From the NCBI RefSeq assembly GCF_000819805.1, contig NZ_CDCE01000025.1:1-64000 (forward strand): a stretch of 64,000 bases of DNA, written 5' to 3'. The stretch's first letter is position 1. Each line of letters begins with the position of its first letter. Origin of the DNA: Aeromonas diversa CDC 2478-85 (GTDB lineage Bacteria; Pseudomonadota; Gammaproteobacteria; Enterobacterales; Aeromonadaceae). Under the pieces are notes generated by a model. It did no database searches and was not told the DNA's origin. It saw nothing but the letters and a program-made list of their open reading frames with translations. Positions 8,666 to 17,974 of this stretch are shown in pieces. The position numbers and the translations under genes were made by a program.

Positions 8666-9562
8666 ATGCGGGGACTCGATTATCACTGGCTGGCGGCGCT
8701 CGATGCCGTGGTGGCCCACGGCGGCTTCGACAAGGGGGCGCAGGCGCTGTTCGTCACTCAGTCGGCCATCTCGCAGCGCATCAAGCAGCTCGAGCGCTGG
8801 CTCGCCCAGCCCGTGCTGGTGCGTGCCACCCCGCCGCGTCCTACCGAGCTCGGGCAGCGTCTGCTCGGCCACTACCGCCGGGTTCAATTGCTGGAGCAGG
8901 AGCTGCACCCGGCCCTCTCACCGGAGGGCAGTGGTCCCCTCTCTCTGGCCATCGCCACCAATGCCGACAGCCTGGCCACCTGGCTGCTGCCGGCCCTCAC
9001 TCCCCTGATGCGCTCGGGACAGCTGCTACTCAATCTGATGGTGGACGACGAGAGCCGTACCCTGAACCGGCTGCGCTCCGGCGAGGCGGTGGCCGCCATC
9101 AGCAGCGAGCCGACCCCCATGGCGGGCTGCGTCAGCGACAGCCTGGGGCGGCTCGACTACCTCTGTGTCGCCAGTCCGGCCTTCGCCAGCCACTACTTTG
9201 CCGGTGGCATCGATGCCGGGGCCCTGGCCCGGGCGCCAGCCGTGGTGTTTGACCCCCATGACGACATGCACGGCGTCTTTCTCGCCGAGCGCTTCGCCCT
9301 TTCCTCCGTGGCCTGGCCGCACCATGTGGTGCGCTCGTCGGAGGCCTTCGTCAAGCTGGCCGTGCAGGGCTGCGCCTACTGCCTCATTCCCAGGCTGATG
9401 ATCGAGCCGGAGCTGGCGAGCGGTGAGCTGGTGGATCTGCTGCCGGGCCAGGGGGTGAGCCGTACCCTCTACTGGCACCGCTGGGCCCTCGAAAGTGGTC
9501 TGCTGGCCCGCCTCTCCGAGACCTGCATCGGGTTTGCTCAGGGTTTTCTGGCGCAGGAGTGA
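8666..9562 (+). CDS. argP: ArgP (IciA), LysR-family regulator of argO
   Basis: 298 residues. The N-terminus LDYHWLAALDAVVAHGGFDK and the QSAISQRIKQLE recognition helix are those of ArgP. The effector domain keeps TLYWHRWALESGLL near the C-terminus. ArgP senses arginine and lysine and controls argO and, in enterics, dapB, lysP and others. Its divergent position next to argO supports the call strongly. Confidence 0.93.
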   Translation: MRGLDYHWLAALDAVVAHGGFDKGAQALFVTQSAISQRIKQLERWLAQPVLVRATPPRPTELGQRLLGHYRRVQLLEQELHPALSPEGSGPLSLAIATNADSLATWLLPALTPLMRSGQLLLNLMVDDESRTLNRLRSGEAVAAISSEPTPMAGCVSDSLGRLDYLCVASPAFASHYFAGGIDAGALARAPAVVFDPHDDMHGVFLAERFALSSVAWPHHVVRSSEAFVKLAVQGCAYCLIPRLMIEPELASGELVDLLPGQGVSRTLYWHRWALESGLLARLSETCIGFAQGFLAQE

Positions 9563-9647
9563 ATAAGGGAGCCATTAGTGCTCTATCCTCTACACACCGG
9601 GATGGGCAGCATGTCGCTGGTTGACTCTCTCTTCATGGAGGAAGGTG

Positions 9648-10571
9648 ATGTTAAAAAAAGCGCACGAGATGTTTCTTGACGATCCGGCATCCTTGATGAC
9701 ATTGCATGATCTGACGGAAAGCGATCTTGCCCTGATACGCAAGTTTGGTCAGATGATCATGCCCAAGATGAGTGAGTTTGTGACTCATTTTTACGGCTGG
9801 TTGCGAACCATGCCCGCCTTCGAGCAGTTTTTCAGTGATGCCCAGCGGCTCGCTCATGTGCAGGAGCAGCAACAGATTTACTGGCGTAGCTTCTTCAACG
9901 CCCAGATCAATGCCCAATACATTCAAGAGCGTGTCATGGTGGGGGAGATCCACGCTCGGGTCGGCCTTCCGCTGCCGACTTACTTCGCCAGCATGAACAT
10001 GTCGATGCTGATCTTCACCAAACGCATGTATGACGGCAGTCTTTACAGCGACGAGTACAGTGCCTTGGTCACGGCCTTTACCAAGCTGCTTCATATGGAT
10101 ACCACCATAGTGGTGGACACCTATGCCCGCCTCAACAACAAGCGATTGGCCGAGCAGAGCGAGGCCCTGCTGGCCATGTCGACGCCGGTTACCATGATTT
10201 GGCAGGACGTGTTGATGCTGCCCATCGTCGGCATCATCGATTCCAAGCGGGCTCAAGACATCATGACCGCCGTGCTTGACAAGATTGCCGAGCAGAGAGC
10301 CAAGGTGTTCATCATGGATATTTCCGGGGTGGCCGTGGTCGATACGGCGGTCGCCAACCATTTCATCAAGATTACCAAGGCGACCAAGCTGATGGGGTGT
10401 GAGAGCCTGGTCTCCGGTGTCTCGCCCTCTATTGCCAAAACCATGGTTCAGTTAGGGGTCAACGTCGGTGAGGTCAAAACCAGCGCGACGTTGCGCGATG
10501 CGCTTGAGAGTGCCTTCAAGACGGTAGGTCTCAATATTCTGGGGCGGCCTCACTTCGACGACCGAGAGTAG
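9648..10571 (+). CDS. rsbR: RsbR, globin-coupled STAS stressosome sensor
   Basis: 307 residues. The start at 9648 is chosen because GGAGGAAGG at 9637-9645 gives ideal ribosome-binding spacing. An upstream TTG would add 9 residues. Residues about 10-165 form a protoglobin/globin-sensor domain: GEIHARVGLP carries His102 at the position of the proximal haem ligand of globin-coupled sensors. Residues about 180-295 form a STAS domain. Thr233 (VVDT) and Thr265 (SIAKT) align with the two RsbT-phosphorylated threonines of B. subtilis RsbRA (Thr171, Thr205). It is the first gene of the rsbRSTX operon. Haem-based sensing of O2 or another diatomic gas is inferred, as reported for the related Vibrio vulnificus protein. 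Confidence 0.9.
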   Translation: MLKKAHEMFLDDPASLMTLHDLTESDLALIRKFGQMIMPKMSEFVTHFYGWLRTMPAFEQFFSDAQRLAHVQEQQQIYWRSFFNAQINAQYIQERVMVGEIHARVGLPLPTYFASMNMSMLIFTKRMYDGSLYSDEYSALVTAFTKLLHMDTTIVVDTYARLNNKRLAEQSEALLAMSTPVTMIWQDVLMLPIVGIIDSKRAQDIMTAVLDKIAEQRAKVFIMDISGVAVVDTAVANHFIKITKATKLMGCESLVSGVSPSIAKTMVQLGVNVGEVKTSATLRDALESAFKTVGLNILGRPHFDDRE

Positions 10572-10577
10572 GGCGTT

Positions 10578-10922
10578 ATGGAGCAGGCAATCCCTATCAA
10601 TCGCCTCAAACAGGCGCTGATCGTTTCCTTTCAGGTCGATCTCTCCCTCTCCTTACTGGCGACCTTCGAGATGACACTGCTCTCCCGGCTGAGCGAAGAG
10701 GGAATAAAGGGGGTGTTGATCGATCTCTCCGGACTCAAGACCTGCGGTTGTGATGAGTTGATGGGATTGCTGGCGTTGGCCAAGGCGGTCGAGATGATGG
10801 GGCGGCATTGTGTCTTCGTGGGGCTGAGACCCGGTCTTGTGATGGGCATGCTGGATGTGGGCATGGATACCTCTGAGATGGTCTCTGTCGCTTCGCTTGA
10901 GCAGGGGATGGAACTCTTGTGA
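10578..10922 (+). CDS. rsbS: RsbS, STAS scaffold of the stressosome, with Cys at the phosphosite
   Basis: 114 residues, a single STAS domain. In B. subtilis RsbS builds the stressosome core with RsbR and captures the kinase RsbT until Ser59 is phosphorylated. Aligning the GVLIDLSG strand here with the equivalent B. subtilis strand, without gaps, puts Cys58 (codon TGT at 10749-10751) on Ser59 and Gly57 on the preceding Asp. The usual phosphoacceptor thus seems to be missing. Cys56 lies two residues earlier. The gene starts 6 bases after rsbR and 7 bases separate it from rsbT. Confidence 0.88.
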   Translation: MEQAIPINRLKQALIVSFQVDLSLSLLATFEMTLLSRLSEEGIKGVLIDLSGLKTCGCDELMGLLALAKAVEMMGRHCVFVGLRPGLVMGMLDVGMDTSEMVSVASLEQGMELL

Positions 10923-10929
10923 GGGAAAG

Positions 10930-11328
10930 ATGAGAGAGGTCGAGTGTTATCGACTCCACCTGGAGACAGATATCGCCATCGCCGTCATGGGGAGTTACAC
11001 CTATGCCCGAACCTGTGGCCTGGCCCCGCAGCAGATGAGCGAGGTGGCCACCACAGTGTCTGAGTTGGCCACCAACGTCATCAAGTATGCCTCGGACGGA
11101 GAGGTGTGGATTGAGCATCTGCTGCTGGGGGCGCGGGAAGGCGTCAGGGTGACCGTCATCGACAGGGGGCCCGGGATTGCCGACCTCGACAATGCCCTGC
11201 GAGATCACTTCTCGACGGGTCAATCACTGGGGCTGGGGCTACCCGGCGTGCAGCGTCTGATGGACGAGTTCACCATTGACACCTCGTCAGGCGGGACCCG
11301 GGTGGCTGCGATCAAATGGAGGGCATGA
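10930..11328 (+). CDS. rsbT: RsbT, serine/threonine kinase of the stressosome
   Basis: 132 residues from the ATG at 10930, with a GAGGG ribosome site just upstream. The GHKL-type ATP-binding fold is clear: N-box SELATNVIKYA, then VIDRGPGI, then the glycine-rich SLGLGLPGVQRLMDEF lid and GTRV near the end. RsbT phosphorylates RsbR and RsbS and is released to activate an output partner. In B. subtilis that partner is the phosphatase RsbU. No RsbU, RsbV/RsbW or sigma-B gene is visible here, so the partner is probably encoded downstream in the same operon. Confidence 0.9.
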   Translation: MREVECYRLHLETDIAIAVMGSYTYARTCGLAPQQMSEVATTVSELATNVIKYASDGEVWIEHLLLGAREGVRVTVIDRGPGIADLDNALRDHFSTGQSLGLGLPGVQRLMDEFTIDTSSGGTRVAAIKWRA

Positions 11329-11915
11329 TGTCGGTGCAGGTGGCGATGCGGCAAACCCCGTGCTTTGGTGAGGTGTCATCCGGTGATGGTGTGGTGGTTG
11401 TCACCCGGGCGCACGGCGCACTGATCGTCGTCATCGATGTGCTGGGTCATGGCGAGGTGGCGGCCTTGTTGGCCCGTGAGATGGAAGGCTTCATCAAGGG
11501 GTGTCCTGCGGCATCCGTGGCGGGGCTGATGGAGATGGTACACCAGCACTTCAAAGGGGAGCTTGGCGCTGCCATTACCATGCTCAGCATCGATCTTGAG
11601 AGGCGGCAGTTTCAGGTCGTGGGGGTGGGAAACGTGATGCTCAGAAAACACAGGCTTGGGAAATGGTTCTCGTTTTATGCCCAATCCGGCGTTGTCTGCG
11701 AGATGATCCCTACCCTGGTCCCCCTCGAGGGGAGCGTGGAGGAGCATGATCTCTTTATCGTGACCTCGGATGGGATAAGAGAAAACATCCCTCTGGAAGA
11801 GGAGCATTCCCTGTCGTGCTGGAGCCCGTCGCAGATCGCGGGTTACATGATGGAACATTTTGCCAAGCATCACGACGACGCCACCGTGGTGGTGGCCAGG
11901 TGCCACTATGGTTGA
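11328..11915 (+). CDS. rsbX: RsbX-type PP2C phosphatase
   Basis: 195 residues from the ATG at 11328, which overlaps the rsbT stop as TGATG and has GGAGG five bases upstream. ATGs at 11316 and 11325 are alternatives. The fold is SpoIIE/PP2C-like: SSGDGVVVV and [11 protein letters not shown] supply the metal-binding aspartates, VGNVMLR is central, and VTSDGIREN and [11 protein letters not shown] lie near the end. RsbX resets the stressosome by dephosphorylating RsbR and RsbS. It overlaps the kinase gene downstream by 8 bases. Confidence 0.87.
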
Positions 11916-14900
11916 TCCCATTTTTATCATCGTTCGGGCGGCCGAGAGCAGCCTCATCTCCTTTCGAGCCAAACTGCTGATCCTGGCGCGCAGCTACGGT
12001 TATTCCCAGGCCGAGCAGGATAGATGGCTGCTCAATATGGATGCACAGATGCTCCCTTTGCTTAAGGGGGGCCACGAGCGGGCGCTGGAGATCCGTTTGC
12101 ACGAGATGGGGGCGTCATTTGCCATAGTCGGCCCCGAGCCCCTCTCCGAGGGCGACACGTCTCTTTGCAAATCCGGCTGGTCTCTGGTTGGTGTATCCAG
12201 GCTCAATCTGGGGCAGTGCCAGGCGCTGGCGAGTCAATTGCGTGAGAAAAATCGAGATGAGTTACTCGATGAGTTGCATGCAAAGAATCGGGCGCTGGCC
12301 GTTCATCAGGAGGGGCTGGAGCAAGAGATCGCTCGTCGTACTGCGGATCTGGTTGCCAGCGAGGAGATGGCAAGAACCATTATTGAAGGGGCACCCTCCA
12401 GTCTTGCCATCATAGATAGCGAGGGGCGAATCCTCTTGTGGAATCGCACCGCCGAGCGAACTTACGGGTATTCTGCCGCGCAGGCGCTGGGTGTTTCCCT
12501 CTTCGAGCTATTGCGCATGGCGTTGCCAGAAGAGCTGGCCTCGTTACTGGCCTTACCGCTGCAATTGTCTCATGCCTCCTTGCTCAAGGAGGGGGCCTAT
12601 GAGGTGCCGACCTTCACGCAAGATGGACGTCTGGTGTCCATCGACCTGGGGGTGTCGATATTCGAGCTGGGTGGCCGCTGTCAGGCGGCCATGTTCTTGC
12701 GGGATGTGACCTCTCGCAAACAGGCCGAGAGCGAGCTGAGTGAGGCCAAGGTCAAGGCCGAAGAGGCCGTCGAAGTCAAATCCATGTTCCTGGCGAACAT
12801 GAGCCACGAGATCAGGACTCCGATGAACGCCATCATCGGAATGGCTCACTTGGCACTTAACACCGAGCTCACCCCCAAGCAGCACGATTACATTGGCAAG
12901 ATCCACTCTTCGGCGACCCTGCTGCTTGGCATCATCAACGACATATTGGACTTCAGCAAGATTGAGGCCGGTAAACTCTCGGTAGAGCGGGTCGACTTCT
13001 ATCTCGATGATGTCTTTCACAACGTCTCTATGGTGACGGGCCAGAAGGCGTTCGACAAGGGATTGGAGCTGCTCTTCGCCATCCAGAGAGAGGTCCCGAA
13101 AGCGCTGTGTGGGGATCCCCTGCGCCTTGGACAGGTGATCATCAACCTGGTGAACAATGCGGTGAAGTTTACCGACGAGGGGGAGATCTCGGTGTCGGTC
13201 AGTCGGGGCGAGATGCAATCGGGAAAGATAGAGCTCATCTTCGAGGTCTCCGACACCGGGATCGGCATGACCGGCAAGCAGACGCAGGGGTTGTTTCAGG
13301 CGTTTACCCAGGCTGACGGCAGCACGACCCGTAAATATGGGGGCACAGGGCTCGGGCTCTCGATTAGCCGGCGATTGGTTGAGCTCATGGGGGGCAGTAT
13401 CCGGGTCGAGAGTTCTCCCTCCATCGGTAGCCGTTTCATCTTCAATACCTGGTTTGACGTCAGCGAGCAGCCGGCTCGCCATCATGAGATTGTCCCGGAG
13501 CGGCTTGCCCATATTCGGACTCTCATCGTTGACGATAACGAACATGCCAGGGACATTCTGGGGGAATTGCTGACGACCATGTCCATACCGGTCGTGGCGG
13601 TCGCAAGCGGAACCGACTCCTTGCGCGTGCTGAAGGAGGCTCATGAGCAGGGTGCTCCGTTCGAGCTGGTTTTTATGGACTGGAACATGCCGGGGCTCAA
13701 CGGCATCGCTACCGCGCGCCGCATCCGCCACGAGCTCCCCCCCGAGGCGCAACCCAAGATTGTCATCGTGACCGCCTATGACAAAGATGAAGTGCAAGGC
13801 GAGATGAGAACCGTGAATGCGGCGGGCTTCCTGACCAAGCCGGTCAGTTCTTCCCATCTGTTTGATATGTTGGTGAACCTCTTTGTCGGCCTGGTACCCG
13901 GTGGCTATCGACCCCACCGGCAGGAGGGGCCTGTGTCGGATTGGTCGCTTTCCGGCATCCGGGTACTGCTCACCGAAGACAACGAGATTAATCAGCAGAT
14001 CGCCGTCGAACTGATGGAGAGCAAAGGCTTGCTGGTGACGGTGGCCAGCAATGGTCAGGAGGCGCTGGATCGGTTGTCGTGCTCATTGCACGGGGATCCT
14101 TTCGACATCATCTTCATGGATCTGCAAATGCCGGTCATGGATGGATACGAAGCCAGTCGTCAGATCCGGGCGATGAGCCAGTGGGACCAGACCCCCCTGA
14201 TTGCCATGACGGCCCATGCCATGGTTGAGGAGCGCGAGCGTTGTCTCAGCCTTGGGATGAACGATCATATCTCCAAGCCCATCGAGCCCGAATTGCTCTA
14301 TCGGACCATCAGCAAATGGTGTCAGGGAAAAGGGTCCACCGCCAAGACGGACCCGGTCAGTGCGACCGAACTCGCGCAACGGCTGCGGGACATCGCCTCG
14401 CTTGACGTCAAAAATGGTCTCCTGCGTGTGGCCGGAAATGAAAAGCTCTATACCCGTCTGCTCTCGCAGATGATGGATGAGCAGGCGGATATTGTCCGGC
14501 GCATTGAAATTGCGCTGGAGAAGGGAGAGCACGAGTTGGCCATGCGGCATGCCCACACGCTCAAGGGAACGTCAGCCAACCTGGGGGCCATCTTGACTTC
14601 TGACATAGCGTCTCGTCTCGAGGTGGCCTTGAGGACTATGTCTGGGCAGGACGATGTCAGAGCCGTGCTCGATGAGATGAGAGAGCACCTGAATAGCTTC
14701 TTCGAACAGTTGGCCGCATCGTTGAATCGCCCCCCGCCTCAGCGCGTCAAAGGGGGGGAGCTGGATCCCGCCATGCAGGCCATGCTCTACCGTCTGGCGC
14801 AGTTATTACTGGAAATGGATGCCGGTGTGCTCGATTACTTTGATGAGCACTATCTGGTACTGCAAGAGCTGCTCAAGCCTGATGATTTTTCAGATTGCAG

Positions 14901-15000
14901 CAGGTTCATCAACAACTGTGACTTCGAGTCGGCAAGGATGGTGTTGAACAGGGCGGTCTCCATCTATCCCCTCGATCTCGACAAGCTGGGTGTGGCTTAA
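11908..15000 (+). CDS. hybrid sensor histidine kinase PAS-HisKA-HATPase-REC-REC-HPt
   Basis: 1030 residues from the ATG at 11908, which overlaps the rsbX stop. Residues 1 to about 110 are a soluble N-terminal region I cannot assign, followed by a coiled coil. Then come a PAS domain (about 153-270), HisKA with His300 in [11 protein letters not shown], and HATPase_c with [10 protein letters not shown] and GTGLGLSIS. Two receiver domains (Asp591 in FMDWNMPG, Asp738 in [11 protein letters not shown]) and an HPt domain (His883 in [10 protein letters not shown]) complete it. No membrane helix is visible, so it is cytoplasmic. Linkage to rsbRSTX suggests that it receives the stressosome signal, perhaps by contacting RsbT through its N-terminus. 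That is inference. Confidence 0.9.
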
Positions 15001-15001
15001 A

Positions 15002-16120
15002 ATGAATGAGACGATTTTGGTTGTCGACGATAATCCTGAGAATCGGGCCGTCTTGATTGGTTTGCTCAAATCCCACTATCGGGTGCTGGTGGCCGTGAAT
15101 GGTTCGCAGGCGCTTGAGATCTGCCACCGAAGTCACCCTGATCTGGTGCTGCTTGATGTGATGATGCCCGAAATCGATGGCTACGAAGTGTGTCGTCGCA
15201 TCAAGGCGCATCCCGATCTTGCTGAGATACCGGTGATTTTTCTGACGGCCAAATCCCAAATCGAGGATGAGCAGATGGGCTTTAGTGTCGGCGCCGTCGA
15301 TTACATCATGAAGCCAATCAGTCCCCCCATCTTGTTGAGTCGGGTCAAGACTCACATCAGGTTGAGACAGGCGAGAGAAGCGCTGGCCAGACAAAATGAA
15401 GTCCTCGAGCAGAGAGTGAAGGCGCGGACTCACGAATTGGAAATGCTGCAAGACGCCATCATAGTGGCCATGGCCTCCTTGGCCGAGACGCGGGATAACG
15501 AGACAGGCAACCACATTCGGCGGACCCAACACTATGTCAGGGCGTTGGCCAACCAGTTGGTATCAGAAGGGCGTTATATGGATCAACTCACGCCCGCCGT
15601 GATTGAACTGCTCTTCAAATCGGCTCCGCTACACGACGTTGGCAAGGTCGGGATCCCCGATCAAGTGCTACTCAAACCGGGCAAACTCACTGAGGATGAA
15701 TTTGAGGTGATGAAGAGCCATACCACCCAGGGGTTGAAGGCGCTCAAGGCGGTGGAGGAGGCACTCGACTTCGAATGTGCATTTCTGAATTTGGCCAATG
15801 AGATTGCCTATTCCCATCAGGAGAAGTGGGATGGTAGTGGTTATCCCGAGGGGCTCAAAGGAGAGGCGATCCCCCTGAGTGCCCGTCTGATGAGTGTGGC
15901 CGACGTTTATGATGCACTCATCTCCAAAAGAGTCTACAAACCGCCTTTTTCCCATGAGAAGGCGGTGAGTATCATTCGGGAGGGCCGTGGTCAGCACTTC
16001 GACCCTGTGGTGGTGGACGCCTTCCTGGCGATAGAGGGCCACTTTCAGGAGATTGCGAGGCGCTTTCATGATGAGGAGTGTCCGCTGCAAGATGAACGGC
16101 CTCAGGTTGGACTGGGATAA
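15002..16120 (+). CDS. response regulator with HD-GYP cyclic-di-GMP phosphodiesterase domain
   Basis: 372 residues. The start at 15002 lies 1 base after the stop of the histidine kinase gene. Residues 1-120 form a receiver domain with phospho-acceptor Asp52 (LLDVMMPEIDGYEV), and residues about 160-355 an HD-GYP domain. The HD pair is His211-Asp212 (HDVGKVGIP) and the GYP triad lies at 280-282 in HQEKWDGSGYPEG. RpfG-like proteins of this build break down cyclic-di-GMP when phosphorylated. It is the probable output of the stressosome operon, linking stress to motility, biofilm or iron physiology. It ends at a strong terminator. Confidence 0.92.
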   Translation: MNETILVVDDNPENRAVLIGLLKSHYRVLVAVNGSQALEICHRSHPDLVLLDVMMPEIDGYEVCRRIKAHPDLAEIPVIFLTAKSQIEDEQMGFSVGAVDYIMKPISPPILLSRVKTHIRLRQAREALARQNEVLEQRVKARTHELEMLQDAIIVAMASLAETRDNETGNHIRRTQHYVRALANQLVSEGRYMDQLTPAVIELLFKSAPLHDVGKVGIPDQVLLKPGKLTEDEFEVMKSHTTQGLKALKAVEEALDFECAFLNLANEIAYSHQEKWDGSGYPEGLKGEAIPLSARLMSVADVYDALISKRVYKPPFSHEKAVSIIREGRGQHFDPVVVDAFLAIEGHFQEIARRFHDEECPLQDERPQVGLG

Positions 16121-16148
16121 AAAAACGGCGCCATCAGGCGCCGTTTTC
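16121..16148. terminator. bidirectional terminator, stressosome operon / pykF
   Basis: AACGGCGCC (16124-16132) pairs with GGCGCCGTT (16137-16145), flanked by A and T runs. It separates the convergent HD-GYP and pykF genes. Confidence 0.85.
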
Positions 16149-16163
16149 GTCACTGGGCTGTGA

Positions 16164-17576
16164 TTACAGCACGTGCACGGAGGAGGTGTTGGTGGTGCCG
16201 CTCGGTACCAGAGCACCGGAGACCATGACAACAACATCACCCTTCACGCCCATGCCGCTTTGCAGCGCGGCTTCCATACCGATGCGGTAGAAGTCGTCGG
16301 TGGAGGCGATGGAGTCAACCACGTGCGCCATCACACCCTTGGACAGGGAGAGCTGGGCTGCGGTCTTCTGGTTGGTGGTGATGGCCAGGATCCAGGCTTT
16401 CGGGAAGTACTTGCGGATGGCCTTGGCAGACTTGCCGCCTTCGGTGGCAACCACGATCAGCGGGGCGTCCAGCTTCTCTGAGGTCTCGACCGCACCCTTG
16501 CACACGGCTTCGGTGATGCGCAGCTTGTTGCTGTCGTTGGCAGCAGACAGGTTGGACGGCATCACGCCATCGGTACGCTCACAGATGGTGGCCATGATGG
16601 TCACGGCTTCCAGCGGGTACTTACCCTTGGCGGACTCACCGGACAGCATGACAGCGTCGGTGCCGTCCAGGATGGCGTTGGCCACGTCGCCGGCTTCGGC
16701 GCGGGTCGGACGCGGGTTCTTGATCATGGAGTCGAGCATCTGGGTCGCGGTGATAACCACTTTACGCGCCTTGTTGCACTTCTCGATGATCATCTTCTGG
16801 GCGAAGATCACCTCTTCAACCGGGATTTCGACACCCATGTCGCCGCGGGCGACCATGATGCCATCGGAGACAGCCAGGATCTCGTCGAAGTTGTCCAGGC
16901 CTTCCTGGTTTTCGATCTTGGAGATGATCTGGATGGCTTCACCACCGTGGGACTTCAGGTGCTCACGGATTTCCAGCACGTCTTCCTTCTTGCGGATGAA
17001 GGAGGCGGCGACGAAGTCCACGCCCTGCTCGCAACCAAACACCAGGTCACGCTTGTCCTTCTCGGCCAGGGCCGGCAGCTTGATGGAGACGCCCGGCAGG
17101 TTAACGCCCTTGTTCTCGCCCAGATCGCCGTTGTTCAGGACCTTACAGATCACTTCACGCTCGGTGATTTCGATGACGTCCAGACCGATCAGACCGTCGT
17201 CAACCAGGATGCGGTTGCCCACGCGCAGGTCGCTGGCAAAGCCCGGGTAGGTCACGGCAACCTTGTCCTTGTTACCCACGACAGTCTGGTCGGTGGTGAA
17301 GGTGAAGGTTTGGCCGGCAACCAGGGAGACGTCGTTGCCCCCTTCCAGCTTCATGGTACGGATTTCCGGACCCTTGGTATCGAGCAGGATGGCGGCCTTG
17401 CGACCGGTCTCGGCCATCACTTCGCGCAGGTTGCGGATACGGGAGCCGTGCTCTTCGTAGTCGCCGTGGGAGAAGTTCAGGCGCATGACGTTCATGCCAG
17501 CGTCCAGCAGTTTGGCCAGCATCTCTTTGGATTCGGTCTTGGGACCGATGGTGCAGACAATCTTGGTCTTTTTCAT
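16164..17576 (-). CDS. pykF: pyruvate kinase I
   Basis: 470 residues from the ATG at 17576, the same length as E. coli PykF. An ATG at 17588 would add MKTD. Pyruvate kinase converts phosphoenolpyruvate and ADP to pyruvate and ATP at the end of glycolysis. The N-terminus [17 protein letters not shown], the [19 protein letters not shown] stretch and the active-site [10 protein letters not shown] are almost those of the enteric type I enzyme, which is activated by fructose-1,6-bisphosphate. The upstream region has three AACGTTTT repeats that may bind a sugar-responsive regulator. Confidence 0.96.
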
Positions 17577-17974
17577 GTCAGTCTTCATGGTTAAAGGAAT
17601 TTTCGCCGGGCAATATACACCAGTTTTTGGATACTTTTATGATCCAGAAACAACGTTTTGGCCAGATAACGTTTTCTTTTTGACTATAACGTTTTCGCTA
17701 CCATTTTCCCGGTTCCCCCCGGTGGGAAGAGTTACAACCCCATAACAGCGGGGGTCCTCTGTTGGAGCCAAACAGCCCATTACGGGAGTCATTCGTAGTC
17801 AAATAACAACAGCCTGGGAGGGGACGCCATGCTGGCCACGTCATGAAGAATAGCTCTCCTGGCGAGGCCATGCTGTCGTGATCAGTGCTCTCCCCGTTTG
17901 TGCGGCTATTCACAAAAGACGCAATTGCTTTGCTGGCCGGCACACGGGCCGAGGTATCATCACGACGGGTTCGT
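17577..17974. other. pykF upstream region, no gene
   Basis: About 400 bases hold no credible gene. The left third contains an inverted TGGAT/ATCCA pair (17628-17646) and three AACGTTTT repeats, and is probably the pykF promoter/operator region. TATATT on the minus strand (17612-17617) is a possible -10 box for pykF, without a good -35. The rest shows nothing distinctive. Confidence 0.5.
17652..17695. promoter_or_regulatory. three AACGTTTT repeats upstream of pykF
   Basis: AACGTTTT occurs at 17652-17659, 17668-17675 and 17688-17695 in the same orientation. Read on the pykF strand each is AAAACGTT, resembling half-sites of LacI-family proteins such as Cra, which represses pykF in E. coli. This is a candidate operator cluster, not a proven one. 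Confidence 0.4.

Follow-up and report, generated by a model that had tools for sequence, protein, structure and literature searches.

In textbook stressosome signalling, the kinase RsbT phosphorylates one serine of RsbS. The RsbS protein encoded in the 64,000-nucleotide stretch of Aeromonas diversa DNA analyzed here (the window) has a cysteine, Cys58, at this place, which raises the question of how such a stressosome could be switched, and whether the cysteine itself has a role. If a broad lineage without the serine retains the RsbR sites, the kinase and, in most cases, the phosphatase, RsbR phosphorylation must be sufficient to control RsbT, unless the acceptor lies elsewhere. Either outcome would affect the extent to which findings from Bacillus and Listeria apply to oxygen-sensing stressosomes. 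Cys58 itself is of little weight.

Table 1. Stressosome operon of the window, its flanking genes, and the RsbS codons discussed in the text
Feature	Position	Strand	Remarks
argP-like LysR regulator	8666..9562	+	left flank of insertion
rsbR, protoglobin-STAS sensor	9648..10571	+	Ser178, Thr182, Ser199, Thr233, Thr265, conserved His102
rsbS, single STAS-domain stressosome scaffold protein, 114 aa	10578..10922	+	PF01740, phmmer, structural superposition
RsbS codon 56, TGC (Cys)	10743..10745	+	hydrophobic column
RsbS codon 57 (Gly)	10746..10748	+	Asp column preceding phospho-site
RsbS codon 58, TGT (Cys)	10749..10751	+	column of B. subtilis Ser59
rsbT, HATPase-fold kinase	10930..11328	+	Glu45, Asn49, Asp78, Gly80 present
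rsbX, SpoIIE/PP2C-type phosphatase	11316..11915	+	13-base overlap with rsbT
hybrid histidine kinase, PAS-HisKA-HATPase-REC-REC-Hpt	11908..15000	+	8-base overlap with rsbX
REC-HD response regulator	14990..16120	+	11-base overlap with kinase gene
pyk (pyruvate kinase)	16164..17588	-	right flank of insertion

Identity of RsbS and position of residue 58

The window RsbS has a STAS fold, its best PDB relative is an RsbS by both sequence and fold, and its gene is placed between rsbR and rsbT. Identity to B. subtilis RsbS is about 30%, and this low value is the one point in favor of a misalignment, with a nearby Ser/Thr in fact occupying the phosphorylation site. We regard this as exceedingly improbable and discarded it, since the phmmer alignment is gapless, structural superposition with a constant shift also brings Cys58, and not another Ser/Thr, onto B. 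subtilis Ser59, and the preceding column, an Asp in 89 of 93 aligned RsbS rows, anchors the alignment. The phosphoacceptor serine at the helix-2 cap (Ser59/56/58) is absent from the window RsbS, and Cys58 is found there. We therefore limit our claim to an RsbS by fold and synteny, and leave out the B. subtilis mechanism.

The original prediction had put Cys58 in the Ser59 column and Gly57 in the preceding Asp column, and had considered RsbT release via phosphorylated residue 58 in the B. subtilis manner impossible. These points stand, the last for the Bacillus/Listeria mechanism as a whole, because the canonical acceptor is absent. Three of the four rows that depart from the preceding Asp are those of the window and V. 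profundi, both with Gly, and of V. mimicus, with Ser. Lacking Asp57, the window protein may be atypical or impaired. No second, canonical RsbS was found in the same genome by a protein search (E 1e-3) or with profile A2 (1e-6); both searches returned RsbS and the RsbR STAS domain only.

Residue 58 in related stressosomes

Species genomes were scanned with a four-row RsbR alignment and the patterns VVDTAVAN and H[FIL]IKITKA. The scan yielded 165 relatives; the 80 most similar to the window RsbR were used, so that near relatives are over-represented. Further loci came from genus, order, class, and phylum searches and from plasmid records, and RsbS was extracted by profile and synteny. Identical RsbS cores were collapsed (144 to 125 in the first alignment; the later count, under the same rule, was 132 rows). 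One locus whose contig ends after RsbR (L053) was excluded before counting, as were STAS matches below 50 bits or without adjoining RsbR/RsbT, including those in L015, L016, L113-L125, and L157.

A Ser or Thr at site 58 was present in 8 of the 82 unique RsbS proteins adjoining a globin-type RsbR, a set drawn in large part from the best 80 of 165. The site was occupied by Leu (24), Arg (13), Ala (13), Val (6), Ser (6), Ile (5), Pro (3), Thr, Lys, and Met (2 each), and Cys, Gly, Phe, Asp, Tyr, and Gln (1 each). V. vulnificus RsbS itself has Gly. Three other globin loci, from evenly drawn genomes (L011-L013), had Arg, Ile, and Ile, none of them Ser. The globin-linked set spans 16 named phyla, 14 of them with Ser-less members; in Nitrospirota and Bdellovibrionota, with one row each, only Ser was seen. 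The expectation of a Ser-less site peculiar to this genome was not borne out, as 74 of the 82 globin-linked proteins also lack Ser/Thr. Scoring the column in many relatives, as had been proposed for gammaproteobacteria, shows the absence of Ser to be shared by members of 14 of the 16 phyla.

Outside the globin group, Ser/Thr was found at site 58 in 33 of 37 loci classed as non-globin without RsbT-RsbX fusion, in 2 of 2 loci where no RsbR was found, and in 0 of 11 loci with a non-globin RsbR and RsbT and RsbX in one ORF. All RsbS proteins of the fused loci have His, Tyr, Gln, or Leu at the site. The fused loci come from six other species of the genus (L003-L008) and from L149, L151, L153, L155, and L156. 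Two loci, L050 and L148, were counted as non-globin although both show globin-like sequence; in L050, the globin RsbR is split over two frames and the RsbS site is Pro. Reclassing both as globin would give Ser/Thr in 9 of 84, which is little change.

The other of these two loci, L148 (genome G833), has a globin-like RsbR interrupted between two ORFs, a canonical-type STAS domain, and a Ser in RsbS. The combination suggests that Ser loss tracks the STAS lineage and not the globin. The globin as the cause of Ser loss, an explanation that we had considered, is weakened by this locus and by the fused non-globin loci.

The survey also bears on the earlier idea of a thiol redox switch, made up of Cys56 and Cys58, governing RsbT binding beside the haem sensor. 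The two residues do form a CxC motif at the start of the helix that presents the phosphorylation site in relatives. However, Cys at site 58 occurs in 1 of the 82 globin-linked proteins (again drawn in large part from the best 80 of 165), namely in the window itself, and V. mimicus, V. profundi, and nine other Vibrio-group relatives have Arg there. Cys56 recurs without Cys58 in V. mimicus (Arg58), L074, and L095. Conversely, L161, a distant non-globin locus, combines Cys at column 58 with Leu at column 56. Column 56 is generally hydrophobic (Leu/Val/Ile/Met in 128 of 137 rows), and among the rows compared both Cys occur together in the window only, so that the pair is not conserved among orthologues. 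A redox switch is therefore very unlikely, and we rejected the pair on conservation. Judged by the alignment, Cys58 looks like one chance letter within a wider loss of Ser.

Retention of kinase, phosphatase and RsbR sites

The loss of the RsbS acceptor is not accompanied by loss of its partners. In globin-type systems, Glu45 and Asn49 of RsbT are present in all 81 rows, Asp78 and Gly80 in all but one, which has a gap, and Gly82 in 76. The 82 globin-type RsbR proteins all have Ser199 and Thr265; 81 retain Ser178 and 76 Thr182. At position 233, 77 have Thr and 5 have Ser, a count partly forced by the scan pattern VVDTAVAN, while positions 178, 182, 199, and 265 lie outside the patterns. An RsbX match follows in 72 of the 82 globin loci; the contig ends first in 5, and none was found in 5. 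The RsbT motifs, the RsbR sites, and mostly RsbX have thus been conserved, in contrast to the RsbS acceptor.

Systems that have lost the RsbS Ser thus keep the apparent RsbR phosphorylation sites and RsbT motifs, as switching through RsbR only would require. Thr233 and Thr265 are intact in the window, as originally predicted, and the RsbR-based switch proposed at the time is now the leading reading. A locus of Vibrio sp. S9_S30 (L033), one of the five in which no RsbX was found, has RsbR, RsbS, RsbT, and the downstream pair, with no RsbX match between RsbT and the kinase.

Evolutionary history of site 58

A tree of 129 rows was calculated from the RsbR STAS domain (column 182 removed) and RsbT by a quick method with no bootstrap. 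In this tree, a branch with SH-aLRT 98 sets apart 31 Ser-type systems. The tree needs 9 changes for Ser/non-Ser and 3 for globin/other. Any link between Ser loss and globin or fusion has few independent events to draw on, with a single supported pair, or three when all branches are counted. The common ancestor of the globin and fused types has 98 leaves, 10 of them with Ser/Thr. Among these leaves, column 58 requires 41 changes (rank 27 by variability among 114 columns, whose median is 31), and column 57, with the Asp preceding the site, only 6. The RsbR paralogue has Ser/Thr at the matching place, and by this argument from paralogy a loss is more likely than a gain in canonical RsbS.

The window and V. 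mimicus loci are sisters (support 85), and their parent node carries Arg. Of the 15 Vibrio-group relatives, 11 have Arg at site 58, among them V. mimicus and V. profundi, and codon 58 is CGT in L011 and L035, one C-to-T step from TGT. Together, these observations suggest that Cys58 most likely replaced Arg. The reading of Cys58 as a substitute for Ser has to be revised accordingly: tree and codons favor Arg to Cys, with Ser lost long before, and a Ser-to-Cys replacement was rejected as less parsimonious. As far as can be judged from sequence, Cys58 is most likely a private substitution at a site that probably ceased to act as phosphoacceptor early in the lineage containing most globin-coupled stressosomes.

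Proposed switching through RsbR and the main alternative

The absence of the Ser, its breadth, the intact kinase motifs and RsbR sites, and the synteny with Vibrio were observed directly. The explanation that we prefer as a whole, and consider probable, is a globin-type RSTX stressosome with RsbS as scaffold, a switch via RsbR phosphorylation, and a private Arg-to-Cys substitution. RsbS of this haem-globin (O2-type) stressosome would be a STAS scaffold that holds RsbT, with its canonical site unphosphorylated. RsbT would act on RsbR, at Thr233, Ser199, Thr265, and/or the linker residues Ser178/Thr182, and RsbX would reset RsbR. We infer that RsbR phosphorylation alone controls RsbT, and the output would presumably pass to the adjoining hybrid kinase and HD-domain regulator.

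Published results on other systems are relevant here. Bacillus RsbS phosphorylated at Ser59 is described as unable to hold RsbT (PMC7522486), and for Listeria RsbS, S56A is reported to abolish the acid response (PMC8942246) and S56D to give no homogeneous complex (PMC12154155, preprint). As S56A is signal-dead, a lineage with Ala, Leu, or Arg at the site must signal otherwise. According to Jia 2016 (PMC4976288), V. brasiliensis RsbS does not share the sites of its B. subtilis counterpart, and O2-dependent kinase control is nonetheless present. Phosphate was mapped there on RsbR Ser178/Thr182 and on RsbT, and RsbT D87N (its own numbering) abolished kinase activity (PMC4976288).

The main rival to switching through RsbR holds that RsbS is still the switch in this lineage, with RsbT phosphorylating another Ser/Thr of RsbS. 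As reported by the same authors, V. brasiliensis RsbS was weakly thiophosphorylated with Fe(II) RsbR, at an unmapped site, despite its non-conserved canonical site (PMC4976288), so that RsbS may be phosphorylated at another residue; against this, no RsbS phosphopeptide is reported there at 81% coverage (PMC4976288). The V. brasiliensis data are compatible with both an RsbR-only switch and a moved RsbS site. Several columns are more often Ser/Thr in globin-linked than in canonical RsbS (column 23, 65% vs 21%; column 67, 48% vs 21%; column 89, 44% vs 6%; column 106, 45% vs 9%), and the window RsbS has Ser17, Ser23, Ser51, and Ser106. Yet no lineage-enriched column is near-universal (65% at best), and column 51, which is Ser/Thr in nearly all RsbS, is equally conserved in canonical RsbS. 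On balance, we consider a moved RsbS site unlikely, though well worth keeping in mind.

With switching through RsbR, the question arises which residue may have taken over. Linker Thr182 of RsbR, by numbering the residue reported as phosphorylated in V. brasiliensis, may be the new acceptor. It is present in 82 of 89 Ser-less systems vs 7 of 41 Ser-bearing ones, but RsbR columns 226, 221, and 242 separate the two groups about as well. The tree offers 4 independent supported pairs; on average, Thr182 changes in the same direction as Ser loss in 0.7 of these 4, in the opposite direction in 0.1, and shows no difference in 3.3. With so few supported pairs, and mostly no Thr182 difference, Thr182 is best regarded as a marker of lineage. 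We therefore dropped Thr182 as a proven compensating site: the raw association follows lineage without independent support from the tree. In addition, the description of the V. vulnificus model considers Ser178/Thr182 buried and Thr233 the accessible site (PMC9237108), which argues against Thr182 as acceptor in the assembled complex. We suggest tentatively, and with somewhat more doubt than confidence, that a deep lineage comprising most haem-globin types and the RsbT-RsbX fusion types dropped RsbS phosphorylation and moved the whole switch onto RsbR, with Thr182 as a candidate new acceptor.

Genomic setting of the operon

The stressosome genes belong to a six-gene operon with all six reading frames open and overlaps at three of five junctions. 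The N-terminus of RsbR is a protoglobin (PF11563, E 3.8e-29), and His102 is kept in 82 of 83 aligned rows; we predict that it is the haem ligand and that haem and O2 are bound here. The rsbX gene directly follows rsbT and is in turn followed by a two-component module, as in the Vibrio-type layout. The hybrid kinase is likely the downstream module of the stressosome, and we read the REC-HD regulator as HD-GYP type. No sigB or rsbUVW follows in the stressosome cluster.

The operon (9562-16164) forms a 6.6 kb insertion between pyk and the LysR gene at 8666..9562, which we take to be argP. In relatives G027 and G029, argP and pyk adjoin, about 70 bases apart, with the G029 contig ending inside pyk; the segments retrieved from G002 and G024 showed no pyk. 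The best plasmid-collection match to the downstream stretch is from Aeromonas caviae (82.5% identity over 39% of the query), and Aeromonas accounts for 15 of the 58 records that match. Of the 37 genomes in the Aeromonas genus set, one has a close RsbS and six others have only the distant kind (7 of 37 with any match). RsbS matches were obtained in 7 of 75 genomes of the family and 9 of 394 of the order. A species-genome contig scan with RsbS alone gave no confirmed relative, and a plasmid megablast with the operon gave one 54-base match only. Gain of the operon by transfer is the simplest reading, with loss elsewhere as the alternative.

Such an insertion, present with a close RsbS in so few genomes of the genus, could also be a recent import in decay, with Gly57-Cys58 marking loss of function. 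The window RsbS indeed has neither the conserved Asp57 nor the Arg58 that was probably ancestral. We nevertheless find this very improbable: besides the open frames and overlapping junctions, the operon proteins can be aligned over almost their full length with their counterparts in one Vibrio locus or more, the RsbT motifs are intact, and Asp57 is also absent from V. mimicus and V. profundi.

Comparison with known stressosomes

The closest described systems are the globin-coupled RsbRSTX stressosomes of V. vulnificus and V. brasiliensis (PDB 7o0i; PMC9237108, PMC4976288), which share with the window the protoglobin RsbR and the order R-S-T-X followed by a two-component module. V. vulnificus RsbS, like that of the window, lacks the canonical Ser. 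At the two critical positions the window has Gly-Cys, whereas V. vulnificus has Asp-Gly and most Vibrio-group relatives have Asp-Arg; moreover, unlike the nearest operons, the window operon has a host outside Vibrio. The B. subtilis and Listeria SigB stressosomes (6jhk, 6qcm) share the STAS fold, the RsbR-RsbS-RsbT set, and key residues of RsbR and RsbT. There, RsbS Ser59/Ser56 is the release switch, a residue absent from the window, whose cluster has no sigB or rsbUVW. In the fusion stressosomes L003-L008, from six further species of the genus, the RsbS Ser is likewise missing (His instead), but these systems differ from the window in an RsbR without globin match, in RsbT and RsbX forming one ORF, and in an RsbS only about 20% identical.

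Non-conservation of the RsbS site in V. brasiliensis was published in 2016 (PMC4976288). No lineage-wide survey of RsbS Ser loss came up in the literature searched, older surveys being outside its scope, and a search for Aeromonas and stressosome gave apparently nothing about an Aeromonas stressosome. The operon belongs to a known kind and the Cys itself is ordinary; the lineage-wide loss is the part worth stating.

Among 11 loci compared, nine Vibrio loci have both the downstream kinase and the HD regulator, L036 (Iodobacter) has the kinase only, and L011 is too short to show the pair. The closest relative among the loci found is the RSTX operon of V. mimicus CAIM 602 (L023), with identities of 77% (RsbR), 59% (RsbS), 55% (RsbT), 49% (RsbX), 60% (kinase), and 72% (HD regulator). 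Its RsbS shares Cys56 and the missing Asp57 with the window, but has Arg at site 58. Across ten Vibrio or same-order loci, identity to the window was 69-77% for RsbR, 39-59% for RsbS, 41-55% for RsbT, and 34-49% for RsbX where found. RsbS, RsbT, and RsbX are thus far more diverged than the RsbR of the same operons.
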